Positions 9,436 to 21,015 of a DNA stretch of 22,254 nt are shown here, piece by piece. The translations under genes and the position numbers were made by a program. Under the pieces are notes generated by a model. The model made no database searches and had not been told where the DNA came from. It was given only the letters and a program-made list of their open reading frames with translations. The DNA is from a virus. How positions within the stretch are numbered: the stretch's first letter is position 1; every line of letters starts with the position of its first letter. The DNA is taken from the IMG/VR virus record IMGVR_UViG_3300045286_000034, positions 1 to 22,254 of that record, one strand, 5' to 3'.

Positions 9436-9774
9436 TCACGTCCCCACTTTCGTTTCGCTGACGCGATCCGCCGTCAGATCCAGATACCGGCCGCGCTCCT
9501 GCTCCAAGACGCTCGTGATGTGATAGACGTAATCGTTCCAGAGGATTCGCATCCCCGAATTGACGACCAGACTCGGATGATTGCGGATGCGGAACGACGC
9601 CTTGACCAGACTCGTCTCCGCGCCCGCGCGCAGCGACTCGAGGCCGCGCAGGTGCCGCAGATCCGACATCGTCTTTTCAACCTCGGTCCACTCTTCCGAA
9701 GGTTGCCCCAGTGAATCCTGTCCGGTGACGCGACGCTGGATCGTGATCTGTGCCCAAAACTTCGCAATGATCAT
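9436..9774 (-). CDS. Head closure / head-tail adaptor protein
   Basis: A 112-residue protein of the SPP1 gp16-like head-tail joining (adaptor) family, which stops DNA leak and docks the tail. The protein has the short beta-barrel pattern of the family: QITIQRRVTGQDSLGQPSEE, WTEVEKTMSDLRHLRGLE (usually W..v.kvwA.i..lrG.E), ASFRIRNHPSL, MRILWNDYVYHITSV and RYLDLTADRV. The frame stays open upstream to 9999, but that part lies inside the connector gene and encodes Arg-rich shadow sequence. ATG 9774, in an ATGA overlap with the connector stop, is the clear start. The stop is followed by the GTG of the next gene one base later. Confidence 0.9.
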   Translation of the reverse strand: MIIAKFWAQITIQRRVTGQDSLGQPSEEWTEVEKTMSDLRHLRGLESLRAGAETSLVKASFRIRNHPSLVVNSGMRILWNDYVYHITSVLEQERGRYLDLTADRVSETKVGT

Positions 9775-10352
9775 ACTGTCAGCACCCGGAACGGCTCGAG
9801 GTACGAACTGAAGAACGCCGGCGGCAACTCGAAGGCGGTCATCGGCATCGGTGCGATGTCGACGCCTGATGTCACGTCGTACATCGCGCCCACGGCGAGC
9901 AAGATCCAGCGCTTGACCTGATACGGCATCATGTCGCCCGGATACCCGGACTCGTAATGCACGACCACCCCGTTCGTGTGTTCCCACGTATCGGGCCATG
10001 AATAGCCGGGTGCCGGGTAGATCCAGTTGCGGATGTCACTGGCGTCGTCGACGACGTAGTTCGACGGGTCTAGTGTGAGCAGCGTTCCGGCCGGGTCGCG
10101 GTACTTGAGCGTGAAGACCTGACTCACCCGTGGCCGCTCGAGCAGGATGTCGGTCGGGAACCGGTCGAGCGTCAGAACAAGCTGCTGGCGCGCGAAGCAC
10201 CGCTGCGTGATGTCTTCCGCCTGCTCGCGTGCGGTCGAGATGAGTTGCCGCACCAGGTTGTCGTGCTCGCTGAACGAGATGTGGCAATGAGTCTTCGCCT
10301 CATCGAGCGTGACCGGTTCGGTGTCTGGCATCGTGAGTCGAACAACTGGCAT
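9771..10352 (-). CDS. Head-tail connector protein (gp6-like / phiE125 gp8-like)
   Basis: A 193-residue protein of the HK97 gp6-like connector family, whose ring binds beneath the portal. The N-terminus has the family pattern: EPVTLDEAKTHCHISFSEHD (residues 12-31), then NLVRQLISTAREQAEDITQR as the second helix, then QLVLTLDRFP. The middle and C-terminus include a WPDTWEHTNGVVVHYESGYP region and PYQVKRWILLAVGAMYDVTS, typical of phiE125 gp8-type relatives. The ATG has GAGGG about 6-7 bases upstream and lies 11 bases after the upstream stop. It overlaps the next gene as ATGA. In most siphoviruses this gene follows the capsid gene almost directly; here more than 9 kb intervenes. Confidence 0.9.
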   Translation of the reverse strand: MPVVRLTMPDTEPVTLDEAKTHCHISFSEHDNLVRQLISTAREQAEDITQRCFARQQLVLTLDRFPTDILLERPRVSQVFTLKYRDPAGTLLTLDPSNYVVDDASDIRNWIYPAPGYSWPDTWEHTNGVVVHYESGYPGDMMPYQVKRWILLAVGAMYDVTSGVDIAPMPMTAFELPPAFFSSYLEPFRVLTV

Positions 10353-10363
10353 CTGTGCCCTCT

Positions 10364-12772
10364 TCAGGTCCGGTGTGTATCAGGCGTCCGCGGACGCTTC
10401 GATTCCTGCGTTTCCGGCCGCACGGTCGGTATTGTGACGGGGCGGGCCGATTCTTCAATGCGCCCGCGCCTTCCTTCCCCGGTCCGTCCCTGACCGTAGA
10501 CAATCGGGGACAGATCCGCGACCAGATCGGCGAGCGCGGCCGCGGTGTCGCTGATCTCCGCGGTCTTGACCACCGCGGCCGAGTACGCGTCTCGGGCGAC
10601 CACCGTCGACTGGTAGATCCCCTCGCCGCCGAGTTCGCCCTTGTATGTCCAGAACGCCCGCGCGGCCGACTCAAACAGGACGCCGATGATTTCGGTGGCG
10701 CCGATCGCGTAGGAAGCCGATGCGGTGGCAGCGTGATTGGCCGTGATACGTGCTGTGGCCGTCAGATCGGCCGCTGCGGCCGCGGACGCTGCGTGGGTGA
10801 CCGAGTACCTTACCGTGGCCGAGATCGCGTCGCCTGCGCCCGCCTGGTAGGCGACGAAGTCACTCCCGCCGGTTGACGTGTCGGTAACGAACCCGGCCGC
10901 GGCGGTTGCGGCATGGGTGACCTGTAGCCGCTGCTTCGTCGTGATCGAGTCGGTGGCGCTCGCCGACCCCTGATGCGCCGCCACCCCGATCGTCTTAACG
11001 GTCAGTGTGAACGTGGCCGCGGCGGTCGCCGTGTGGGCGGCGACCAGTCTCAGGGCGACCGTGGCGGTGTAGACCGCCGTTGCCGCCGACGTGTAGGTGA
11101 CCGGACTGTTCTGCTGCGCCGCAAACGAAGTCGCTGCTGCCGCCGCGCTCGCGAACGTGCCGGCCGATACCTGCTTGGCAGAAACCGTGTCTGTCGCGAT
11201 CGCCTCGGGCGTGTGGGCGTACTCGCCCGGACGCATGGCGGTGACGCCGAACGTGGCCGCGGCGGTGAAGTCGGCCGCGGCCGCAATGATCTGCGTGCCG
11301 GTGAACGATGCGGTCGCCGCCGCCAGCCCATCGTGGACGCCGATCTTGCCGGCGATCCCGGTGAGGGTCAGCAGCGCCGCCGCCGTCTCGGCGTAGGTCA
11401 CTGCCTGAACTCGAATGCCGCTTACCGCGTCCGTCGCCGCCGCCGCGCTCGCGAAGGTCGGGCTGAACTTCAGCAGTCCGGTTGCCGCCCCGGTCGCCGC
11501 TGCAGAGCTCGCGAAGGTGACGCCGATCTTTCCAGTGACCGCGTACGAGTCGGCCGCTATGGCCGCGGCCGTGTGCGTCCCGGTCTGCGGTCCGCCGGCA
11601 GCGGGAGTCGGCACGCGGAACTCGATCCAACTGATCCGGAATTCAGCGCCGCCGACGTAAGTGGAGTCGGTCGTGAATCCGGATGCGGCCGACGTGGCGA
11701 ACGTGACGAAGATATTGCCCGCGCCGGTATTGCTGTCGGTCGCCACCGCGGACGAGGCGAAGGTGACCTGGAGACTGCGCGCACCCGAGTTGCTGTCGGT
11801 CGCCACCGCGCTCGACGCGAACGTGGCGGCGGATTTCTGAACCGCGGAGACGCTGTCAGTTGCGCCCGCAGCGGAAACAAAGGCGGCTACATACTTTCCG
11901 ATCGCCGACTGACTGGTGGTCGCGATAGCGGCTGATGCGAATGCGTCCGATATGCCACGCGATGCGGCAACAGCATCGGTCGCAACGGCGACAGATGCAA
12001 AGGTGACCGATTTCGCGACGCGGCCGGAAACGGAATCGGCGGCGGTCGCCACGGAAGAAAACGTGTGCGCCGATCTCTGCACCGCCGAATCACTATCCGT
12101 CGCAGTCCCGGTCGACGTGAAGGTGTCGGAGAGAATCTGCGTGGAATCGATTTCGATCGCGGCACTCGCGAACGCAGAAGCAGAGGTGCTGCCCCATGTG
12201 ACCGTTGCGTTCGTGATGCCGGTGATCTTGTACGCGGCACGGGCACCAGTTACCGGAGTGTTGTAACCCTGGTCAGTCGCCGCCGTGTAGGTGCTCGGGC
12301 CAGTTACGCCTGATGTGTTGGTTCCGTTCGCAACCGCCGAAATGATCGTGTTCGCCGTCAGTGGCGTGTTGCTCAGTACAGGCGCAGGCGTCGTTCCAGA
12401 TCCGCCGCTTGATTGACCGCCTGAAGACCGGATAGCGCTTGAGCCGTATCGAGAACCCCCTCCGACTCGATAGACGAACAGTCCGCCGCCAGTGGAACTC
12501 GTCTGCGTCGCTGTGACCGTCATCGCCGAGGCGCTCACGGCGGTCGTGCGCGCCCACACACTCAGGGTGCCGGTTGTCGAAAACCCGGTGTAATCACCCG
12601 CGACCTTCGTCCAACTTCCAGACTGTGAGTCGGTGATGCCTGACGTTGCGACACCGGTTGATACGCAGACGGCGATAAGCAGATCGCCAGCGGCCGGAGT
12701 GAACGAACCAGTCGACTTGTTCCCGATCGCGGTGGTTAATACCGGGGTGACCGCGGTAATGGACAGTGCCAT
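10364..12772 (-). CDS. Long 20-residue-repeat virion protein, putative fibre
   Basis: An 802-residue protein. Residues 1-about 212 form a Ser/Thr/Gly-rich beta domain (AAGDLLIAVCVSTG; GSWTKVAGDYTGFSTTGTLS; AAYKITGITNATVTWGSTSA), a jelly-roll-like pattern common in phage structural proteins. Residues about 215-702 are about 25 units of a strict 20-residue repeat (consensus near VTFASAAVATDSVSGxxxxx), with an aromatic or His at 218, 238, 258 and on to 358, then 400, 420 and on to 700. Residues about 755-802 are a basic, Pro/Arg-rich disordered tail. There is no cysteine apart from Cys36, no signal peptide and no coiled coil. The start overlaps the preceding stop as TAATG. The first connector gene begins 11 bases after its stop. 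Tail fibre, head fibre and stalk protein are all possible; position favours head or head-tail junction. Function is unknown. Confidence 0.82.
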   Translation of the reverse strand: MALSITAVTPVLTTAIGNKSTGSFTPAAGDLLIAVCVSTGVATSGITDSQSGSWTKVAGDYTGFSTTGTLSVWARTTAVSASAMTVTATQTSSTGGGLFVYRVGGGSRYGSSAIRSSGGQSSGGSGTTPAPVLSNTPLTANTIISAVANGTNTSGVTGPSTYTAATDQGYNTPVTGARAAYKITGITNATVTWGSTSASAFASAAIEIDSTQILSDTFTSTGTATDSDSAVQRSAHTFSSVATAADSVSGRVAKSVTFASVAVATDAVAASRGISDAFASAAIATTSQSAIGKYVAAFVSAAGATDSVSAVQKSAATFASSAVATDSNSGARSLQVTFASSAVATDSNTGAGNIFVTFATSAASGFTTDSTYVGGAEFRISWIEFRVPTPAAGGPQTGTHTAAAIAADSYAVTGKIGVTFASSAAATGAATGLLKFSPTFASAAAATDAVSGIRVQAVTYAETAAALLTLTGIAGKIGVHDGLAAATASFTGTQIIAAAADFTAAATFGVTAMRPGEYAHTPEAIATDTVSAKQVSAGTFASAAAAATSFAAQQNSPVTYTSAATAVYTATVALRLVAAHTATAAATFTLTVKTIGVAAHQGSASATDSITTKQRLQVTHAATAAAGFVTDTSTGGSDFVAYQAGAGDAISATVRYSVTHAASAAAAADLTATARITANHAATASASYAIGATEIIGVLFESAARAFWTYKGELGGEGIYQSTVVARDAYSAAVVKTAEISDTAAALADLVADLSPIVYGQGRTGEGRRGRIEESARPVTIPTVRPETQESKRPRTPDTHRT
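10667..12130 (-). repeat. 20-residue (60-base) repeat array, about 25 units
   Basis: The array is in near-perfect 60-base register. For example, a 21-base identical run (ttgctgtcggtcgccaccgc plus g) occurs at 11730 and again at 11790. Two units are longer or divergent and resemble each other: SGFTTDSTYVGGAEF (364-378) and AGFVTDTSTGGSDF (626-639). They contain the only breaks in the aromatic/His ladder. Confidence 0.9.
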
Positions 12773-14337
12773 TACGTCACCTTGCCGCGCACATGAACAT
12801 CGGTGTAATCCGAGATCAGATCAGCCTCGGCGCCAGCCATCGTTAACCAGAAAGGCGCACCCGCAGCGATCGGTCCTGCGACCGACCATTCAGATAACTT
12901 CGTGGACGTTCCCTGCCAGATCGCGAACGTGAGCGTCTTGCCGGAAGGGATCTCGACCGGAACCTGAAAGCCGAGTTCGTGATGGTCGTTCGCGCCGGGA
13001 TCGGTGAGCGCACTGACCTTGATGTCGAACTCTGCGCCGAGCGTCACCGTCTTGATGTAATCGCCATCATCGGGCACAACTTCATCGACGACCGCGTACA
13101 GGTCCGGGCCGCTGCTCGCCGTCCATCCGGTCGTTGTGATGTCTGCGATCGGATGCGATATCTGGTAGGCGATGCCACTGACATCGAATCCGGCCGTCAC
13201 CGCCGCGACGATGCTCGCGACGTAGGCAACGATGCTCGAGACGCTTTCTCCCGCCCGCGCCTGCGCGGTCACGGTGGCGAGCAGAGCGAGAACTGCCGCT
13301 TGACTGGATGCCGCGCCTGCTGCCTCTGAGATCGCGGCTACGAGTTTCGCGGCAGCGGACGCCTGGTCTGTCGCCGCCGCCGCTGATGTGAGTGTCGCGA
13401 ACAGTTTGCCAACGGCGGTGATCTGGTCGGTCGATGCGCCTGCAGATGTCAGCGTCGCAAGCAGTTTCGCAACCGCAGTCGTCGTGGCCGTGGCCGCGGC
13501 AGAGTCGGCAATCGTGCCGGTGAGTTGCTGAACCGATGACTGCGCACTCGTCGTGAATACCGCCGCCGCATCGCTGGCGAACGTGGCGGTAAGCACCTGC
13601 GGCCCCGCGGCAGCTTCGCTCGGCACCACCCACGGGACGAAGTGCAGGCGCGGTGGAGCGCGGAAGAGTTGCCACGGGTCAGTTTGCAAAACTGAAGCAG
13701 CAAGAGCGACATTCAATTCGCCGGTTCCAAAAACAACATAACCAGTCGAACCAAGACTGTTGTATCCCGTGTAGAACGACCCCCATCCCGTGAAGGCAAC
13801 CCCATCATCATCGAATGTCCGAAGATCGGCGGTCGTCCCTGTGCCAACGGTCACAGTGCCGTCAACGGCGATGATTGGCGCAACGCCAGACTTTCGGTAT
13901 CCAATGACGGTGCTGTACGCGCCGAGCGCATTCGATGAGGTTACTGAGCCGCCACCCCATGTGCTAAGTACAAGTTTGTTTGTCGCGTAGGTTTGGCCGA
14001 GCGATACGTTGAACCATGTGTATGCGTTGCCGGTATCAGAAAGCCAATAGCCATCGCTAGCAAGCGACAAATTCGGTTTGATCCGCGCAATGAACCACCA
14101 CGGCGCTGTCGGCGGAACAACGTAGTACAGGCACTTCTGGTTTATCTTTACAACGCTGTTCAGCACATGGTAGATCGAACCACCTTCGACATTCGGCCTG
14201 AACTCATAGCCGCTGCTTCCACTGGCGACGTACCCGTCAATCTGACTGCTAGGAGTGCTGGCCGAACAAAAATCCAATGACCGTAAGACACGACCACCGC
14301 AGAACTCTTTACGCGGGACGAATGGGCGTTGTTTCAT
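12772..14337 (-). CDS. LamG + 20-residue-repeat virion protein
   Basis: A 521-residue three-part protein. Residues about 1-225 form a LamG-like domain (WWFIARIKPNLSLASDGYWL; GYVVFGTGELNVALAASVLQ) ending in DPWQLF at 220-225. Residues about 248-405 hold roughly eight Ala/Ser/Thr-rich repeats; from residue 276 the phase is exactly 20 (GTIAD 274, ATLTS 294 and 314, AAISE 334, ATVTA 354, ASIVA 374). Residues about 405-521 form a beta-type C-terminal domain ending ADLISDYTDVHVRGKV, a pattern I remember at the C-terminus of other phage structural proteins (D.I.DY.DL.VR). Junctions with both neighbours overlap (ATGA, TAATG). Base composition changes abruptly at the LamG/repeat boundary: 43 of 60 G+C in the block at 13621, 25 of 60 in the next. 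The LamG part therefore looks like a foreign head joined to a resident stalk. Confidence 0.82.
   Translation of the reverse strand: MKQRPFVPRKEFCGGRVLRSLDFCSASTPSSQIDGYVASGSSGYEFRPNVEGGSIYHVLNSVVKINQKCLYYVVPPTAPWWFIARIKPNLSLASDGYWLSDTGNAYTWFNVSLGQTYATNKLVLSTWGGGSVTSSNALGAYSTVIGYRKSGVAPIIAVDGTVTVGTGTTADLRTFDDDGVAFTGWGSFYTGYNSLGSTGYVVFGTGELNVALAASVLQTDPWQLFRAPPRLHFVPWVVPSEAAAGPQVLTATFASDAAAVFTTSAQSSVQQLTGTIADSAAATATTTAVAKLLATLTSAGASTDQITAVGKLFATLTSAAAATDQASAAAKLVAAISEAAGAASSQAAVLALLATVTAQARAGESVSSIVAYVASIVAAVTAGFDVSGIAYQISHPIADITTTGWTASSGPDLYAVVDEVVPDDGDYIKTVTLGAEFDIKVSALTDPGANDHHELGFQVPVEIPSGKTLTFAIWQGTSTKLSEWSVAGPIAAGAPFWLTMAGAEADLISDYTDVHVRGKVT
13123..13596 (-). repeat. 20-residue (60-base) repeat array, about 8 units
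   Basis: This array encodes the stalk of the 521-residue protein. Five-residue cores of the type A-[TA]-hydrophobic-[TSV]-[SAE] recur every 20 residues, and several units share Lys-Leu just before the core (KLLATLTS, KLFATLTS, KLVAAISE). The units are related in period and composition to the array in the next gene, but the aromatic/His core residue is mostly replaced by Leu, Ile or Val. Confidence 0.75.
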
Positions 14338-16664
14338 TGCGGCACCAGAATCGCGCTCTTAGGCATGCGCTGCGCGGGCGAGGGGAGGAAGATCGTGCGG
14401 CACCGAAGTTCACGGAAAATCTGCCACGGATCGCGCTGCCACTCCAACATCTCGACATCCAACAGTCGGCGATTCCAAACCGCGATCAGGTAAATGCGTC
14501 CATAGAAGTAAGTGACCAAATCCGCCCTGCTTGCGATCCACGTTTCCCGCGTCGTTGGTGGGTCAAGCAACACATTCGATCCGGCGTATTGGAGTACACC
14601 GGCAGAACCGGGGACGCCATTGACCATGAACGTCGGCACATCGTTGAGATAGCCACTACTAGAAACAGAAACCTTGTGTCCTATCCCCGCAGCAAGCATG
14701 TTGGATGCCGAGCCGCGCCAAATTGAGTAGTAGGTAGCGGTTGACTGAATGAGGCAGATGTGGGAGTCCGTAGGTCCGTCACCAATTCTTAATTCAATGC
14801 CACCACCTATTCCGTTACTGCCATTGGCGGCGCACAGAATCGCGCTGTAGTTTGCCAGCGAGTAGACATCCACGTAGGCGCCAATCGTGAACGGCCCCGA
14901 CTTGAGCTTTATGGCATTGATTGCGTGGTACTGGATTTGACCAGTCGTCGAATTAGCCGCGAGGCCGCAAGGTCCACCGCTAAGTGGCATCCACCACGGA
15001 CTTGTGACCGGAGACGCATTGATGAGTGAGACGCCAAGATTCGCAGAAAAGGTCGAAGCCAATCCAACAGTCAACGGATTGGTGTTGTTAAACTCGATGG
15101 TGCGCGGTTGCCTCGTCACCCTCGACGGCAGATGCAGCGCAGGCGTAGCGAGTGCCTTGGCGCGCGGCACGCCGACACCGGGGACGTTGGGGATGAAGAT
15201 AGTGCGCGACGGACCGGGCGAGCGGAAGAGTTGCCAAGGGTTTGCAGTGAGTTCCCTCAACATCAAGTCTGAAAGCGCAACGTTCCAATCGGCATGTAGC
15301 AACAGCGTGCCGTCAAACACTTCAGATCCTGAAGTATTCCTCGCCCCATAGATCACGTTCGGTTCGGTAGGATTGGAAAATGACGCTGATGCCGTCCCGT
15401 TGCGAACCAGCCGACCATTGACGTGATCTAGCCTCACGTTCTGACCGCCAGAATAGGAAACGCTTGCACAAGCGAGCACACCTTGAGTCAGGCCAGCACC
15501 ACTCGTATTCCCCAATTCCGAAACGCCCTGAATAACAAGGCGCATCTCGCTACCGGAAACTGCCCACTGGCAGGTGAAATTCTCGCCCGAAGAAAGTGTC
15601 CCGCCGCTCGCGCCGGGAATGAATATCGCCAGCCGCGTGAACTCATTTGCGTTTGCAGGGCGCAGTGCTTTTGTCCCAACCCTGATGTAACTGCTGCCTG
15701 CGGTGTTTAGTTTCCACCCGGCCCCTATGGAAGAGCCGCCGAGCGAAACACCAGCACTGTCGTTGACAAATCCACGGCATCCGAATGACGCGAGATCGTA
15801 AAGACCTATGCCATTCGGCAATGCCACTGAAATGATGTCTTTTGTATACGGAGTTTTTGATAGTTCAATGGTGCGCGGTTGCCTCGTCACTCTCGACGGC
15901 AGACTAATGAACGGCACTGCGCTTCGCTTGACGTTCTCAAACAACGCCCACGGATTTGATTGATACTGCCGCAGGTCTACCGTGCCGGTCGAATCAACCG
16001 CGAACATGATCGGGCTGGCGTATGGGCCACCAGAGGAAAACCGCGATCCGATGTATGGCACGCCAGTTATCAATGAAGGCGACCCGCCGCCTTCTGTCTG
16101 CGTCGGCATCCGGCCATCAACCCAAATCTCATACGTCGATCCGGTCCAATGGAAAACGGCAACATGCACTCCGTTGTTGAGCGCGTAAGAAGCCTCGGTG
16201 ATCCCTCGCCGACCACCATTGAGTACGGACAGCACTTCATCTGTTAGATAACCAGTGCTACCACCGAACTGAATGCTTCCTTCGACCGCCGAACCATCGG
16301 CAATCGTCGCCAGCAATTGATTACCACTGACCGAATTGATCGGACCTAGCGAAACGGAAAACAAACACAAGACGCTGCGCCATTCGCAGGAGCCGAACGC
16401 GGTCCGCTGCGTGGGTCCAGAAGCAGTTGCCCTGAGAACTTGGAACCCATACTCATCGCTTGGAATCCAGTTAGCGCTTGGTTGCTCCTTCGATTTGCGG
16501 TCAGCGCGATAGAACCCACCATCGAGAACGTACCCGGCTTGAATGGGCAAACCAGATGTAAGGCCAACAGGTGTGTCGGGTTGCCTCTCCCAACGCGAAG
16601 AGGCGAGGATGAGTGCGCCTTGCGAGGTCGATCCATCAGGCGCGCGGGTGAAGTAGGAGCGCAT
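14334..16664 (-). CDS. Triple-LamG virion protein (tandem lectin-like modules)
   Basis: A 776-residue protein with three tandem LamG-like modules. They end at NPWALF (residue 237), NPWQLF (475) and DPWQIF (745). Modules 1 and 2 are each followed by the linker LPSRVTRQPRTIE (residues 255 and 512, exactly 257 apart). Modules 2 and 3 show clear LamG endings (GTLLLHADWNVALSDLMLRE; YGRIYLIAVWNRRLLDVEML); module 1 is less typical (YEIWVDGRMPT and VDLRQYQSNPW). There is no signal peptide or membrane segment. The ribosome binding site is weak, so translation relies on the TGATG overlap with the previous gene; it overlaps the next as ATGA. The DNA is about 50% G+C in sampled blocks, lower than head and connector genes, suggesting separate acquisition. 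The likely role is a surface-exposed adhesin or decoration on the virion; the binding target is unknown. Confidence 0.85.
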   Translation of the reverse strand: MRSYFTRAPDGSTSQGALILASSRWERQPDTPVGLTSGLPIQAGYVLDGGFYRADRKSKEQPSANWIPSDEYGFQVLRATASGPTQRTAFGSCEWRSVLCLFSVSLGPINSVSGNQLLATIADGSAVEGSIQFGGSTGYLTDEVLSVLNGGRRGITEASYALNNGVHVAVFHWTGSTYEIWVDGRMPTQTEGGGSPSLITGVPYIGSRFSSGGPYASPIMFAVDSTGTVDLRQYQSNPWALFENVKRSAVPFISLPSRVTRQPRTIELSKTPYTKDIISVALPNGIGLYDLASFGCRGFVNDSAGVSLGGSSIGAGWKLNTAGSSYIRVGTKALRPANANEFTRLAIFIPGASGGTLSSGENFTCQWAVSGSEMRLVIQGVSELGNTSGAGLTQGVLACASVSYSGGQNVRLDHVNGRLVRNGTASASFSNPTEPNVIYGARNTSGSEVFDGTLLLHADWNVALSDLMLRELTANPWQLFRSPGPSRTIFIPNVPGVGVPRAKALATPALHLPSRVTRQPRTIEFNNTNPLTVGLASTFSANLGVSLINASPVTSPWWMPLSGGPCGLAANSTTGQIQYHAINAIKLKSGPFTIGAYVDVYSLANYSAILCAANGSNGIGGGIELRIGDGPTDSHICLIQSTATYYSIWRGSASNMLAAGIGHKVSVSSSGYLNDVPTFMVNGVPGSAGVLQYAGSNVLLDPPTTRETWIASRADLVTYFYGRIYLIAVWNRRLLDVEMLEWQRDPWQIFRELRCRTIFLPSPAQRMPKSAILVPQ
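15097..15132. repeat. 36-base direct repeat, copy 2 (LamG linker)
   Basis: This is the second copy of the linker repeat, between LamG modules 2 and 3. The surrounding LamG modules have diverged far more than this linker. That implies recent duplication, gene conversion or selection acting specifically on the linker. Confidence 0.9.
15868..15903. repeat. 36-base direct repeat, copy 1 (LamG linker)
   Basis: This is the first copy, in transcription order, of a 36-base direct repeat encoding the LPSRVTRQPRTI linker between LamG modules 1 and 2. It matches the copy at 15097-15132 at 35 of 36 positions; one C/T difference is silent. The copies are 771 bases apart, an exact multiple of three. Confidence 0.9.
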
Positions 16665-17329
16665 CAGATTGGCTCACTCGCGTAAACGGCCCAAGGGTTC
16701 ATCGCATAATCAAAGTGCTCTCTGGCGGATAGCGCGCGACGAAACAGCGCCGCGAAGTAAGCCACTTCTGCGGAAACACCCGTGGTCAAGACACTGAAAT
16801 CCACGTTGGCATTGTTGACGGCACCCACGCTGAAAGGACTGTCAAACTGCTTGCCGTTCACGTAGAAAGTCAGCAGCGATCCTGTGTTGGTGAACCCCAC
16901 CACCATGATCTGACTGTCTCCGTATGAAGTGCCGTCCCAAATTGAAGTGGTCGTTTGGTAGTCGGCAATCCCACCATGAGTGAAACGCAGATACCCATAA
17001 TTCGCCTCTTGAAACGCCAACCCAACACCGGCAGAAAACTGGTAGAAAAAATTGAAGTTGCCACCGTAAGGAATGATGTTGGTCAGGAACACTCCTGACA
17101 ATGGAAGTTTCAGGACGGGGAGCGCCGGGTAGATTATGTTGTTACCAGTAACGGGGATGACACTTCCAAGTCCCCATTTGGTCGCGCGAGTGCCGAGCGT
17201 GTAAGAACCCGCCGCGCCGCGCACCAACTCTCGATTCCGCACGCAGTCGAAAAGGAACAGCAAATCATTCCTCGGGCGAGCAGGACCACTCGGTTGCCTT
17301 CTAACCGCCCCCGGCAACTGAACCAGCAC
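16664..17329 (-). CDS. LamG/concanavalin-like domain protein, single module
   Basis: A 221-residue protein made of one LamG-like (concanavalin A-like) beta-sandwich, a fold that usually binds carbohydrate or protein ligands. The N-terminus holds the linker LPGAVRRQPSG, a diverged copy of LPSRVTRQPR found twice in the next gene. Visible LamG hallmarks are the strand pattern QIMVVGFTNTGSLLTFYVNG followed by KQF, and the closing FAALFRRALSAREHFDYAMN, ending in NPWAVY near the C-terminus. That NPW[AQ][LV][FY] end motif is shared with all the LamG modules downstream. The start is GTG with a consensus Shine-Dalgarno. Its stop overlaps the next start as TGATG, so the LamG genes are translationally coupled. 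G+C is low here (26 of 60 in the block at 17041). The protein is probably virion-attached; the target is unknown. Confidence 0.82.
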   Translation of the reverse strand: MLVQLPGAVRRQPSGPARPRNDLLFLFDCVRNRELVRGAAGSYTLGTRATKWGLGSVIPVTGNNIIYPALPVLKLPLSGVFLTNIIPYGGNFNFFYQFSAGVGLAFQEANYGYLRFTHGGIADYQTTTSIWDGTSYGDSQIMVVGFTNTGSLLTFYVNGKQFDSPFSVGAVNNANVDFSVLTTGVSAEVAYFAALFRRALSAREHFDYAMNPWAVYASEPI

Positions 17330-17334
17330 GACAA

Positions 17335-17340
17335 CCTCCT
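17335..17340 (-). promoter_or_regulatory. Consensus Shine-Dalgarno AGGAGG deciding a GTG start
   Basis: The minus strand reads TAGGAGGTTGTCGTG. A full AGGAGG sits 5 bases before the GTG of the first LamG gene, and the upstream gene's TAG stop supplies its first two bases. This is the strongest ribosome binding site I noticed in the window. It justifies the GTG start and implies efficient re-initiation. Confidence 0.85.
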
Positions 17341-17818
17341 ACGCTGCGGGCGCGTAGGTGAACGGCTTGATCTTGACCGTGATCGGCGTGGCCGAGTAGA
17401 CGAGTGATTGCGCGGTCGAGTTCTTGATGAGGAACTTGGCTTTCTGCACGCCTTCGAGCGAGATCACAATCGAGCGCGATCCGGCCGCCGTCACGTCTTC
17501 CATCACGAACGATCCGAAGAACTTTGTGCCGCCTGGTACGTCGCTCGTGCCAGCCGCCACTGGCGACTCGGCCGCACCGTCTGCGCCCTGAGTGATATAG
17601 CCGTAAAGATCAATGGTTGATCCTGCGGCTGGCGCCACGCTCCACGCGGTCGGCCACGTCAACGTGGCGAGGCCGTACGGGTAAAGGTTCACGGAGTTGT
17701 CGAGTTCCGCAACGGTCGTGCTGCCTCCGTCGTAGGTGTTCGATCCCGATGTGAGCGTTGCCGCGTGCGAAATGACCGTGGTCAAACTGCCGAATTTCAT
17801 TGCCGCTTCGTTGCTCAT
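17339..17818 (-). CDS. Putative small beta-rich virion protein
   Basis: A 159-residue Ser/Thr/Gly/Ala-rich protein with no cysteine and a beta-strand-like pattern. It has an N-terminal GSLTTVISHAATLTSG, then VAELDNSVNLYPYGLATLTW, an exposed loop (SIDLYGYITQGADGAAESPV), and a C-terminal SIVISLEGVQKAKFLIKNST with ITVKIKPFTYAPAA. The arrangement (LDN..NLY..., ...TIDLY.Y...DG..Y/E, ..FG......) resembles small phage proteins that often precede LamG-domain proteins, and suggests a jelly-roll or beta-sandwich subunit; this is pattern memory, not a search. The ATG has AGGAG six bases upstream, and the previous gene's TAG stop is embedded in that AGGAG (TAGGAG). Its own TAG is again embedded in the next Shine-Dalgarno, giving two successive stop-in-SD junctions. 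G+C is about 57-63% in the blocks I counted, unlike the next gene. Confidence 0.75.
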   Translation of the reverse strand: MSNEAAMKFGSLTTVISHAATLTSGSNTYDGGSTTVAELDNSVNLYPYGLATLTWPTAWSVAPAAGSTIDLYGYITQGADGAAESPVAAGTSDVPGGTKFFGSFVMEDVTAAGSRSIVISLEGVQKAKFLIKNSTAQSLVYSATPITVKIKPFTYAPAA

Positions 17819-17827
17819 CGCCCACTC

Positions 17828-18316
17828 CTAGAAACGGTTGAGTGCGTTGCTGACTTCATCCTCAGTGACCAACGCACTGAAGTCGCGTTTCTTGGCGGTG
17901 ACGGTGCCGGTGGTTGCGTCGGTGCCAAGGCCAATGATGACCTGTGCGTTGGTCATGTTGACCAACGCGGCCTGAAGGATCGCCTCGGCGTCGCTGCCGC
18001 CAGTGGCGTTGCCCCAAACGTCCGTGACCCACTTGCGGACCTTGGCCCGGCTGAAGTCGCGCGGGAACCGCATAAACGCCTGATTCCATGAATCGCGCTT
18101 TCCGGCGCTCAGAGTATCGAAGGCTACCCAATTGGTCGCCTCATCAGAGTCTTGCGCCGCCATGCTTTCGTTCCACGCCTTGATCGGCCCCGGCGCGCTC
18201 TGGTTGCACCAGACCGTGATGGCGGCGCGATTGCCGATGGCAAGTGCGGCCACGACGGTACTGTCCGCTGAGGCACGTATCCCGGCCGCGAGCGCTTGCT
18301 TTTGTGCGTCGTTCAT
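17828..18316 (-). CDS. Conserved small phage protein of unknown function
   Basis: A 162-residue protein. The N-terminus is Ala-rich and helical (MNDAQKQALAAGIRASAD). A tryptophan-rich centre follows: TVWCNQSAPGPIKAWNESM, then TNWVAFDTLSAGKRDSWNQA, then RDFSRAKVRKWVTDVWG. The C-terminus has IGLGTDATTGTVTAKKRDFS and DEVSNALNRF. From memory, the order V[FW]...S.P...W....W...D.LT.GK...W, P.D.S.A.IR.....W, TGT, D[ED]V..ALN recurs in small unnamed proteins of Gram-negative phages near capsid and LamG-protein genes, so I am confident it is a real phage family but not of its role. The start overlaps the previous stop as TAATG and has AAGGA about 7 bases upstream. Its own TAG stop lies inside the Shine-Dalgarno of the next gene. 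Confidence 0.78.
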   Translation of the reverse strand: MNDAQKQALAAGIRASADSTVVAALAIGNRAAITVWCNQSAPGPIKAWNESMAAQDSDEATNWVAFDTLSAGKRDSWNQAFMRFPRDFSRAKVRKWVTDVWGNATGGSDAEAILQAALVNMTNAQVIIGLGTDATTGTVTAKKRDFSALVTEDEVSNALNRF

Positions 18317-18627
18317 TACCTTGTCCTTTCAAATTTCACCGGATGATTCCGCGCCTCATACTCGGCGGTTTCCTTGATTACCCGCAGTCCGCACTTGGCG
18401 CACTTCGTTTCGAGTTCAACGATGCGGCTCGCCCATTGCTGGTTGACCCTCGCCAGCGCAACTCGCTCACGGTGCTCGAGTGCGAACGCGTGAAGATCCG
18501 CGGGCAGCGATGCGATGAAGTGTTCCAGTTCCTTTATCTTGTCCGACAGCACTCCGTTGCGCTGCCTGAGCCGGTTGACTTCATCGCACAGCGCAACCCG
18601 TGTCCATCGGGCAAGATTCTCGGACAC
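18316..18627 (-). CDS. Small coiled-coil protein with one CxxC motif, unknown function
   Basis: A 103-residue, highly charged, probably all-helical protein starting with GTG one base after the upstream stop. Residues about 15-40 (DEVNRLRQRNGVLSDKIKEL) and 50-75 (EHRERVALARVNQQWASRIV) form two heptad-like helices. A single ETKCAKCGLRV motif near residues 73-83 could make half of a zinc knuckle; a dimer could supply four Cys ligands. I do not recognise a named family. The ribosome binding site is weak (GAG about 12 bases upstream), so translation probably depends on coupling to the gene before it. The stop overlaps the next gene as TAATG. Small helical proteins at this position can be packaging or assembly helpers, but nothing in the sequence proves that. 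Confidence 0.7.
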   Translation of the reverse strand: MSENLARWTRVALCDEVNRLRQRNGVLSDKIKELEHFIASLPADLHAFALEHRERVALARVNQQWASRIVELETKCAKCGLRVIKETAEYEARNHPVKFERTR

Positions 18628-18628
18628 A

Positions 18629-18982
18629 CTATTTTTTCTCGACCTTAATGATGTGACTGTCGAGCCACTTCGTCCCTGCGTGCAGCACTGAGTTGACCGC
18701 GCCCCACTTCATTCCAGGTGTCACGATCGTCGGCTCGCTGTTCCATGTCCACTCGATCGAGTAGGCGCCGCCCTTGTCCTGGTGCTTGGCCGCCATGTCG
18801 AGCGTTTTCATGCCCGACACCTTCAGGTCTTGCGCTTGGGCATCGGTGACGTTGTGCAGCACGGTCGTCTGTTCCAGTTTCACGGCGTCGCCGACCTTGA
18901 CAACCATCTTGGCGGTGACATCCGCGGCGCTCGCGAACGCGGTCGCGAACAGCAGTGCAATGAAAAGCATGATTGATTTCAT
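18629..18982 (-). CDS. Small exported protein with Sec signal peptide
   Basis: A 117-residue protein with a textbook signal peptide: Lys2, a hydrophobic core (IMLFIALLFATAFA) and an AxA-type cleavage site (ASA|ADV) around residues 19-20. The mature part of about 98 residues looks beta-rich (VTAKMVVKVGDAVKLEQTTV; YSIEWTWNSEPTIV) and has no cysteine. I do not recognise the family. ATG 18982 has GAGG 5 bases upstream (GAGGATCAG-ATG). An export signal inside a block of virion genes is unusual, because structural proteins assemble in the cytoplasm. It may be a moron-like cargo gene acting in the periplasm of the infected cell or lysogen, for example by altering an envelope receptor; that role is inference. 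Its stop is one base before the next start, and six consecutive A residues precede the stop. Confidence 0.8.
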   Translation of the reverse strand: MKSIMLFIALLFATAFASAADVTAKMVVKVGDAVKLEQTTVLHNVTDAQAQDLKVSGMKTLDMAAKHQDKGGAYSIEWTWNSEPTIVTPGMKWGAVNSVLHAGTKWLDSHIIKVEKK

Positions 18983-19007
18983 CTGATCCTCGGGTTGTGG
19001 AGTGATT

Positions 19008-19032
19008 GCGGCGACCGTCAGTGCATCGCCGC
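19008..19032 (-). other. Short GC-rich inverted repeat before the secreted-protein gene
   Basis: In the 58-base gap after the previous stop, GCGGCGA pairs perfectly with TCGCCGC around an 11-base loop. No U-run follows on the minus strand, so termination is unlikely. It may only reflect base composition. Confidence 0.3.
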
Positions 19033-19040
19033 CATCACGG

Positions 19041-19661
19041 TTAGCCTACGTCGATCGAGACGGAGACGGTCACGAGCAACTGGTCGCCCACGCTCGAAAT
19101 CGTCTTGTCGCCGCTGAATAGCGCCGCGGAGTACAGCGGTGCCGTGGTCGACAGCCTGGTCGCGCCGCCTGCAATGAACGCGCCCTTGACCGTGCCGGTG
19201 CCGCTGAACGTGAAGTCGACGGTGCCGGTGCGCGCCAGCACGACCGGGTCGGCCGTGGTGGGCGTGCCCCAGTTTCCCGACAGCGCGCCCCTGTTGGTGC
19301 CCGATGGCGTGCTGTAGTTCGGTGCGTACGTCGCCGAGCATTCGGCCCAACTGTTTCCCACACCAGACAGGTTCGCTGCGGTGTCGGCCGATGTCGGTCC
19401 GGATGTGTAGCTCGCGCCCGAGATCAGGCCGAGATAGTTGGCGGCGGTGTAGGCCGACCCCTTGAAATACTGGGTCAGCAGATCCTTGCCGCCTTCGATC
19501 GTGACAAGGTTCTCGGCGTAGAACTCGTCGATTACCTCGCCATGATGGATGTGAACGCAGTCGAAGCGGAACCGAGGAGCGTGGCGGCGGAAGTCGACCC
19601 CGCCGCTGCGAATCAGTTTCGCAAGGAGTGCATCGGTCATGGAACCCAAACTCTTGAACAT
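19041..19661 (-). CDS. Putative virion structural protein (small beta-rich phage protein)
   Basis: A 206-residue protein directly downstream of the capsid gene. A short polar N-terminus (MFKSLGSMTDALLAKLIRSG) leads to FYAENLVTIEGGKDLLTQYF, then a Gly/Ser/Thr-rich beta region with LGLISGASYTSGPTSADTAA, a tryptophan segment (SWAECSATYAP), GTVDFTFSGTGTVKGAFIAG and a closing ALFSGDKTISSVGDQLLVTV. I recognise this pattern (EG...L..YF..., Y.GLISG..., GT.KG.F..., LFS....V..GD.L.V) from small unnamed proteins beside capsid genes in many tailed phages, but I know no proven function. ATG 19661 is preferred because AGAGG lies 7 bases upstream. An in-frame ATG at 19721 would add 20 residues but has no ribosome binding site and would cover the hairpin. 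Decoration or head-fibre subunit is a guess from position. Confidence 0.75.
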   Translation of the reverse strand: MFKSLGSMTDALLAKLIRSGGVDFRRHAPRFRFDCVHIHHGEVIDEFYAENLVTIEGGKDLLTQYFKGSAYTAANYLGLISGASYTSGPTSADTAANLSGVGNSWAECSATYAPNYSTPSGTNRGALSGNWGTPTTADPVVLARTGTVDFTFSGTGTVKGAFIAGGATRLSTTAPLYSAALFSGDKTISSVGDQLLVTVSVSIDVG

Positions 19662-19728: not shown

Positions 19729-21015
19729 TTAGGCGTTGGTGACCTTGATGCACTTGAGGGCGTTTTTGTTCAGGATGATTCCACCCTCACGACGACGGAT
19801 GTAGAACTTCACGAAGCCGATGTTCGTGACGTTGTCACGCGTCACACGCAGGCCGACGCGGTCGGCGAGCACATAGCCGCGGCGGAAGTCACCGAACAGG
19901 ATCGGGTACTTGTTGTTGCCGGGGTCGTCCATCTGTTCCCAGATGGAGATCGGCTTGCCAAGCAGCATATCGGGCTGGCCGACGATGAGGCTCGGTTGCC
20001 AGAGGTACTGAAGATCCTGATCCTTGAGCTTGCGCAGTGCGCCGGCCGTGACGGAGTTGAACGCCCACGTCCCGTTGCCGCGATAGCGCGAGTTCACGCG
20101 GTACTGCAGATCGATCACCGAATCCGGCAGGATCGCATTGGTCGCGCTGACGTTGGCGATGAACTCGATCTCGTCCGCATCGCGCGTACCGGCAGCGTCC
20201 GTCTCGTTGGTCGGCGCGCTGTTGAAGATGCCGGTGGGCTTCGACGTTCCGTTGCCCGTAAGGACGGCCGTGGCTTCCGCAATCGCGAATTCCTCGGCGA
20301 CCGCTTCCGACAACCACGCTTCGACATCGAAAAAGATGTCGTCGAGCGACCATTCGGACGCCTGCGGGTACGCATACAGTTCGCCGAAGGTCGGAGCGAT
20401 CTCAACCAGCGACGGCGATGCCGTACCCGGCCGAGCATCCGACTCACCGACCCACCCGCTCGTGGCCGTATTCACGCTGACCAGTTCCTTGTAGTCAGCC
20501 GTTCCGGAGCGGACCACCTTCACCAGCGAGCGAACGGGCGAGAACTTGAGTTCCAGTTTCTCGATCGCCGTGCTGATCTGCTCGGGCACCGCGTAGCCGC
20601 CAGCACCGGGCGTGCCGACCGTGACATCCGCCTTGAACTCGGGGCGACGCATGAGATCTTGCATCTTGCGTTCGTCGTCCGCCGATTGGCCGCGCGCACG
20701 GAACCACGAAAAGAACGCGGTCTTGTACTCGTCGCGCAGTTTTTCGATGTTCGACATCCCCTGCCCGCTGCGCTTCGATTCCAGTTCCTCGATGCGGTCG
20801 CGCTGGAACTGCACTTCGCGTTCCAGTGCATCGCGTTTGGTGACCGATTCCTTGATCACCGCTTCGATCGACGCGAGCTTCGTGTTCAGGTCGTTCGCGA
20901 GTGCTTCCTTGCCCTCGGCGATCGCCTTGACTCGAGCGTCGTTCGTTTTCTTGAATTCCTCGAATGCCGTGGCGGTTGCGTCAATCGCCGCCTTGATTTC
21001 TACAAAACTAGACAT
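19729..21015 (-). CDS. Major capsid protein, HK97 fold
   Basis: A 428-residue HK97-family major capsid protein, the icosahedral shell subunit. Residues about 1-85 are charged and heptad-like (EEFKKTNDARVKAIAEGKEA; ALEREVQFQRDRIEELESKR), as expected of a delta/scaffold domain removed by the upstream protease. The capsid core follows: GGYAVPEQISTAIEKLE near 139-155, GWVGESDARP near 187-196, the A-domain motif GNGTSKPTGIFN at 254-265, and a C-terminal FRRGYVLADRVGLRV.RD.. pattern. The start has AAAGGA about 7-8 bases upstream. A 34-base gap separates it from the protease, and a hairpin lies just after its stop. Its exact cleavage site cannot be read from sequence. No separate scaffold gene is present, consistent with the built-in delta domain. 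Confidence 0.95.
   Translation of the reverse strand: MSSFVEIKAAIDATATAFEEFKKTNDARVKAIAEGKEALANDLNTKLASIEAVIKESVTKRDALEREVQFQRDRIEELESKRSGQGMSNIEKLRDEYKTAFFSWFRARGQSADDERKMQDLMRRPEFKADVTVGTPGAGGYAVPEQISTAIEKLELKFSPVRSLVKVVRSGTADYKELVSVNTATSGWVGESDARPGTASPSLVEIAPTFGELYAYPQASEWSLDDIFFDVEAWLSEAVAEEFAIAEATAVLTGNGTSKPTGIFNSAPTNETDAAGTRDADEIEFIANVSATNAILPDSVIDLQYRVNSRYRGNGTWAFNSVTAGALRKLKDQDLQYLWQPSLIVGQPDMLLGKPISIWEQMDDPGNNKYPILFGDFRRGYVLADRVGLRVTRDNVTNIGFVKFYIRRREGGIILNKNALKCIKVTNA

Follow-up and report, generated by a model that had tools for sequence, protein, structure and literature searches.

Introduction

The head spikes of the Rhodobacter capsulatus gene transfer agent (RcGTA) consist of a jellyroll base pentamer (Rcc01079) and a flexible fibre (Rcc01080), and they aid capsule binding (PMC7296036, PMC10218006). 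In Agrobacterium phages 7-7-1 and Milano, garland proteins encircle tailspikes and tail fibres at their distal ends (PMC12796354, PMC10811340); gp014 of 7-7-1 is modelled as such a protein at the baseplate (PMC12796354), and for gp125 and gp127 of Milano, AlphaFold models were fitted to the garland (PMC10811340). In this work, these systems are compared with a block of nine genes located between the major capsid gene and a head-tail connector gene in a 22,254-base virus record (IMG/VR IMGVR_UViG_3300045286_000034), referred to below as the window. The core of the block is a recurring cassette, composed of genes for a small protein A, a protein B (g162 in the window), a protein C (g159), and a LamG protein whose module ends in NPWQLF, often accompanied by repeats of 20–22 residues. 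We consider it, with somewhat better than even confidence, to be a transferable accessory-adhesin cassette of the virion with the core A-B-C-LamG, expanded in the window to three LamG-type genes and a repeat protein. Such a cassette probably helps particles to stick to host surfaces.

Further precedents come from other particles. Protein gp76 of phage phiCbK is a proposed head filament with a concanavalin A (ConA)-like lectin domain, and its gene lies nearer to the head genes than to the tail genes (PMC3556154). The turrets of HFTV1 are composed of a base, TBP gp30, and a carbohydrate-binding head protein, THP gp31, placed on the capsid and encoded under consecutive gene numbers (PMC12494034). 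Ig-like capsid adhesins also exist, such as T4 Hoc (PMC13370021), and a preprint on Peru-2 describes an Ig-like pentamer at capsid vertices. The capsid of Milano is decorated by other proteins (PMC10491603).

RcGTA combines a small jellyroll protein with a flexible, carbohydrate-related fibre under consecutive gene numbers, and it attaches to a polysaccharide capsule; likewise, a small gene, whose product is modelled as a jellyroll, directly precedes a fibre-type gene in the cassette. In contrast, neither LamG nor 20-residue repeats are reported in the accessible descriptions of RcGTA, whose spikes occupy the five-fold vertices, and PDB searches returned no sequence match for cassette protein C. 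The 7-7-1 and Milano garlands share slot-A homology with the cassette, as well as the grouping of small genes with a receptor-binding protein, and in 7-7-1 these genes also lie among packaging genes; however, the garland partner is a beta-helical tailspike whereas the cassette partner is a LamG protein, and B and C have no convincing homologue there. Protein gp76 is likewise a low-complexity repetitive protein with a ConA-like lectin domain and a head-side gene, but it is a single protein of 2,799 residues that its authors did not detect in virions, and the accessible text does not describe an A-B-C set (PMC3556154). HFTV1 differs in being an archaeal virus with deacetylase-like and galactose-binding-like domains and no LamG in the accessible description (PMC12494034). 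ORF14 of Marinobacter phage PS3 is a PF13385 ConA-like lectin in the structural region, but, unlike the block, its gene stands behind the tape-measure gene, where tail proteins are usually encoded (PMC8424206). Searches of an open-access library listed no paper with a LamG/jellyroll cassette beside capsid genes in its title or opening abstract lines, and a description elsewhere is possible. Each ingredient has precedents, and the recurrence across head types is notable.

Organization of the block in the window

Read on the minus strand, the window begins with a portal end and a protease gene, continues with the HK97-type capsid gene, the nine genes of the block, and the gp6-like connector, and closes with tail genes; the names of the portal, the protease, and several tail genes were assigned from position and sequence. 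The features of the block and its borders are as follows.

19729..21015, minus strand: HK97-type major capsid gene, left border (PF05065, E 2.8e-72)
19041..19661, minus strand: 206-residue protein, possible slot A, with its start at 19661 (phrog_8123, a family of unknown function, E 4.5e-10)
18629..18982, minus strand: 117-residue protein with a signal-peptide-like start, read from the sequence (no family above cut-off)
18316..18627, minus strand: 103-residue protein with an apparent coiled coil and one CxxC, read from the sequence (sub-cut-off coiled-coil matches only)
17828..18316, minus strand: g162, slot B, query that returned 14 related loci (AlphaFold2 model)
17339..17818, minus strand: g159, slot C, modelled beta jellyroll (AlphaFold2 model; spacing)
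16664..17329, minus strand: 221-residue protein with one LamG module and the end motif NPWAVY (LamG profile, E 4e-9)
14334..16664, minus strand: 776-residue protein with three LamG modules (Laminin_G_3, three profile domains, three end motifs)
12772..14337, minus strand: 521-residue protein with the end motif DPWQLF at residue 220 and 20-residue repeats (motif, lag test)
10364..12772, minus strand: 802-residue protein with 20-residue repeats (lag test; no Pfam or PHROGs family match)
9771..10352, minus strand: gp6-like head-tail connector, right border (PF05135, 25.9 bits against a cut-off of 21.2; phrog_442, E 1.1e-21)

Nine co-oriented genes between the HK97-type capsid gene and the gp6-like connector had been described in an earlier note on this DNA, and both their order and their coordinates are borne out. 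That note had also taken them to be translationally coupled throughout; all nine indeed lie on the minus strand, but genes overlap at only 4 of the 10 block junctions (by 1, 1, 4, and 1 nt), with gaps of 1–11 nt at four others and of 58 and 67 nt at the remaining two. The G+C content is 0.547–0.556 over 14–17 kb, where the LamG genes lie, against 0.589–0.682 in the other 1-kb steps of the window, which fits a foreign origin of these genes but is no proof of it.

Recurrence of the cassette

A search of the viral collection with g162 returned 14 related loci, giving 15 records with the window (loci are designated by L numbers). In 12 of the 15, g162 is directly followed by a C-type gene and a LamG-type gene; L013 and L014 have another small gene between g162 and the C/LamG genes, and no C gene was called in L011. 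A small gene resembling a glycosyltransferase by eye lies between g162 and the C/LamG genes at L011:7363-8019, L014:10492-10995, and L013:2400-2903; for the L011 copy, PHROGs returned phrog_1574 (unknown function) and Pfam nothing.

A second, independent scan, which used the GC-rich codons of NPWQLF, yielded 47 records, and in 34 of them a called gene contains the motif in frame. The other 13, which have no in-frame motif gene, were left out (L016, L017, L028, L029, L039, L040, L047, L048, L049, L050, L057, L061, and L062), although L039 has B and C genes. Many of the LamG-motif records keep the A-B-C-LamG order with other B families, slot A being occupied by phrog_3758 or phrog_644, and proteins similar to the 206-residue protein of the window occur near the cassettes of L027, L033, and L059 (cluster 29). 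Gene calls and protein clusters were made with custom scripts. A megablast of the block DNA against phages and a scan of genome contigs with the g162 alignment gave nothing useful, and related-locus scans with the connector and with the 776-residue LamG protein gave candidates, none of which was confirmed.

Transfer as a unit

The DNA of 40 chosen loci was compared, with pieces longer than 150 bp retained at E up to 1e-10. L022, whose portal and capsid belong to the phrog_12 and phrog_10 clusters, and L032, with portal phrog_21 and capsid/protease phrog_4523, are similar at the DNA level in two pieces only, both within the cassette. One, of 528 bp at 84.7%, covers A and the beginning of B; the other, of 1703 bp at 77.3%, covers the end of B, C, and most of LamG. 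Similarly, L056 (portal phrog_1216, capsid phrog_1328) matches the HK97-type L054 at 77.8% over 672 bp, and C proteins of this family are, across these head types, 55–78% identical to that of L037. Because DNA similarity is confined to the cassette in phages with different portal and capsid families, the cassette moves as a unit. Comparison of gene order across relatives thus bears out the suggestion that the set travels as one cassette.

Position of the cassette in phage genomes

Marker genes were named with PHROGs and Pfam, and a cassette was counted as head-side when a gene of the head, packaging, or neck class was no more than five genes away on its own strand. All 15 g162 records and 23 of the 34 LamG-motif records are head-side; these are raw counts from records many of which are close relatives and not independent. 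Cassettes occur with at least six head types and in several slots. The slot used in the window, capsid to gp6-like adaptor, is occupied, with both borders visible, in L022, L023, L037, L042 (as L069), and L060, and a search with the C profile added a further example from a prophage on a Massilia rhizosphaerae contig (L075). In other loci, the cassette lies between portal and protease (L041, L045, L055), portal and scaffold (L005, L056), portal and a fused capsid/protease gene (L019, L032), TerL and portal (L009), or a Mu-type capsid and its adaptor (L015), or it stands upstream of TerL (L014 and L038, the latter as L068). L013 was scored through a cluster in common with L014; L010 contains portal and MuF genes, though without a label in the tally. 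Two annotations were discarded: the gene labelled 'MuF' in L005–L007 is a scaffold gene, and the one labelled 'protease' in L012 is a capsid gene.

The view that the cassette is always head-side was rejected, given copies in tail positions and among non-structural genes. In L018 and L052, two of the 34 LamG-motif records that form one lineage (L063 and L071, the extended versions of these loci, have 99.99% identity across 17,225 bp), a C+LamG pair follows the tape-measure gene. In one further record, L043, such a pair follows a T7-type internal virion protein, which PHROGs classifies as 'head and packaging'. T7-type tail fibres are encoded at a position of this kind, and for that reason L043 was counted apart from the head-side records. 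In L059/L073, slot-A-like, B, C, and LamG genes lie on a strand of their own beside opposite-strand genes that include a recombination exonuclease.

LamG modules and repeats

The earlier note had counted five LamG modules in three genes. A LamG profile, for which 28 sequences from other loci were aligned, finds four of them, one in the 221-residue protein (E 4e-9) and three in the 776-residue protein (domain E 4e-6, 2.8e-16, and 5e-12); the fifth, in the 521-residue protein, is represented by the DPWQLF end motif, the sole part of that protein that aligns to LamG. Pfam Laminin_G_3 (PF13385) reaches 40.6 bits in the 776-residue protein against a cut-off of 27.6, and in the Pfam scan it exceeds the cut-off in no other protein of the window. 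The 802-residue protein, also noticed before as repetitive, has a 20-residue period, with a lag-20 identity of 0.31 (0.28 over a longer stretch). The same period is found at the end of the 521-residue protein (identity 0.21), whose C-terminal domain is common to L002 and L010. Across loci, the best repeat lag is 20–22 residues, or double that, in 26 of the 38 proteins with a sufficiently long tail after LamG.

Proteins B and C

The AlphaFold2 model of g162 is mostly helical (predicted local distance difference test, pLDDT, 74.8; predicted template modelling score, pTM, 0.66), and fold searches with it gave no match with E <3, the best VIA match having Z 2.6. For g159, a model from a six-row alignment is a beta sandwich or jellyroll (pLDDT 72.3, pTM 0.73). 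Its VIA matches are led by CBM6 (Z 8.0, root-mean-square deviation 3.0, 109 aligned) and include a lambda tail-tip chain (Z 7.3) and a capsid chain of cyanophage Pam1 (Z 6.5, root-mean-square deviation 4.3, 114 aligned), all in a middling Z range about which the tool warns; Foldseek ranks the BC2L-C lectin domain first, with a template modelling score near 0.4. Because these matches are middling and include both head and tail chains, the modelled fold of g159 decides neither virion location.

PDB sequence searches with the A3 and A5 profiles found no solved head-spike chain at E up to 10, a distant relation being possible, and those with alignments A1, A3, A5, A7, and A8 gave nothing or chance-level matches. 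The gap between g159 and the first LamG gene of the window is 9 nt, and the C-to-LamG gap is at most 11 nt in 22 of 25 chosen pairs. Profile comparison links B families (cl4–cl21, E 2e-8; g162–cl4, E 2e-4 at 47% probability), while the profile link between the C_cl13 and C_58 sets is inflated by one member that they have in common.

Slot A and garland proteins

The slot-A family phrog_3758 is the sole cassette family with a solved relative. It is seen in relatives of the window, in 5 of the 15 g162 records or, with looser clustering, in 6. The family matches PDB chains 44nx_B and 9rkv_A, both named only 'Structural protein'; the match to 9rkv_A has E 4.7e-8, and 9RKV is a 'Tail fibers' model of phage 7-7-1. 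With tblastn, slot-A homologues were found in 9 of 50,697 phage records, namely 7-7-1 (two records), Milano, and six Vibrio phages. In a 17-protein set, the phrog_3758 profile matches 7-7-1 gp014 (E 4.8e-12) and Milano gp127 (E 2.1e-23), and local slot-A profiles also match 7-7-1 gp012, Milano gp125, and protein 17 of Vibrio phage CKB-S1. The PHROGs label 'head and packaging' carried by phrog_3758 was rejected as evidence for a head location; the relatives described in papers are tail garland proteins.

The 7-7-1 homologues are encoded between the genes of the small and large terminase subunits, with portal, protease-like, and capsid genes coming next, and the CKB-S1 homologue is encoded after a baseplate assembly gene. 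Since garland genes of 7-7-1 sit between terminase genes, a protein of the tail can be encoded on the head side. The earlier step from head-side gene position to a capsid or collar location is therefore weak, given the garland relatives in 7-7-1 and Milano and the C+LamG pairs in tail-side positions. The 206-residue protein of the window is not linked to the garland family (its cluster against an enlarged garland alignment has an hhalign probability of 0.14%), and its hidden Markov model match to 7-7-1 gp014 is weak (E 0.007). B, C, and LamG profiles have no convincing match among the proteins of 7-7-1, Milano, or CKB-S1. A profile of the phrog_644 type of slot A matches 7-7-1 gp011 (L077:12454-13962), a virion structural protein, at E 3.6e-6 in the 17-protein set, which may connect the cassette to the 7-7-1 gene cluster a second time.

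Role and location of the products

These results support the accessory-adhesin explanation, while the solved relative of one cassette family makes gene position an unsafe guide to location. The products would be synthesized late, together with the rest of the structural proteins, and be built into the virion. The small protein C (and A) may assemble into an oligomeric base or garland, and LamG modules on stalks made of 20–22-residue repeats would bind weakly and multivalently to glycans or other host-surface polymers before irreversible binding of the tail. Glycan binding by the LamG proteins is predicted from their fold only.

Several points weigh against this explanation. The cassette is known here from genes alone, and we infer that its products enter the virion; moreover, a specific docking site is harder to envisage for a set that moves between unrelated virions. 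Eight of the 34 LamG-motif records have no resolved position (L020, L024, L026, L030, L033, L036, L053, and L059), although L030 matches the head-side L072 at 90.0% identity over 6,042 bp, and in L059/L073 the genes around the cassette, a recombination exonuclease gene among them, are not structural by annotation. Profile comparison links several C families only weakly, and the C family cl10 has no link. Finally, g162, g159, the B and C proteins of L037, the C protein of L021, and the LamG protein of L045 have no match in the 50,697 phage records, and therefore no cultured phage with the B-C-LamG set is at hand.

Two sites on the particle are considered as sub-cases of the accessory-adhesin explanation, a spike on the capsid or neck and a garland on the tail, and we regard them as about equally probable, with a role outside the virion placed below either. 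On the first, which we put forward tentatively, a jellyroll base of C would carry a LamG fibre as a head spike and hold the particle to a capsule, flagellum, or other glycans. The head-side address of all 15 g162 records and of 23 of the 34 LamG-motif records agrees with such spikes, as do the precedents of RcGTA, HFTV1, and phiCbK gp76, and in the L032 phage a tail-fibre gene, separate from the cassette, follows the tape measure. However, the solved slot-A relatives are tail garland proteins encoded among packaging genes, C has no PDB sequence match to a head-spike protein, and the cassette is found with unrelated portal and capsid families. An equally tentative extension of the same idea is a self-contained mobile head-spike module, in which LamG fibres on a jellyroll base would dock on unrelated capsids (HK97-type, P22-like, and Mu-like) and make them cling to glycans.

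The second sub-case, a receptor-binding complex of the garland type on the tail, encoded among head and packaging genes as in 7-7-1, is held with equal reserve. It draws on the matches of phrog_3758 to 9rkv_A, to 7-7-1 gp012 and gp014, and to Milano gp125 and gp127, and on the C+LamG pairs located behind the tape-measure gene in L018 and L052 and behind an internal virion protein in L043. Beta-helix or tailspike-like neighbours of the cassette also point to the tail; in L012, a 612-residue right-handed beta-helix protein (L012:6946-8784; PF13229, 45.5 bits) directly precedes g162, and L035 has a neighbour of this type. In addition, L032 and L037 have a phrog_290 tail gene in common despite their different head genes. 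Nevertheless, the homology covers A only, B, C, and LamG being without a convincing match in 7-7-1, Milano, and CKB-S1; phrog_3758 clusters in just 5 of the 15 g162 records (6 with looser clustering), the 206-residue protein of the window is not linked to the garland family, and the L032 phage has another tail-fibre gene.

That the genes are passengers of late operons whose products act in or on the host cell, for example in surface modification or phage exclusion, would suit their mobility between different virion types, the L059/L073 copy among genes not structural by annotation, and the signal-peptide-like protein in the block, but it is improbable given that the cassette is nested in late head operons in most resolved records, that the inspected starts of B, C, and LamG proteins are mostly not signal-peptide-like by eye (exception: the long g162 start call, L015), and that slot-A homologues are virion proteins.

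If the accessory-adhesin explanation is true, tailed phages that differ widely in head type trade a complete adhesin set by way of the gene block that they conserve most, and particles have a route, apart from the main tail fibre, to gain stickiness to capsules, flagella, or other surfaces. The comparison also carries a warning, as the site of a protein on the particle cannot be read from a gene position on the head side.

Neighbouring genes

Four small or middle-sized proteins encoded between the portal and MuF genes of L010 were considered as lysis genes, a proposal dropped after Pfam found nothing. In L014, the cassette is followed by a gene for an 857-residue protein (L014:13105-15678), which by eye resembles a large terminase with a putative intein-like insert.

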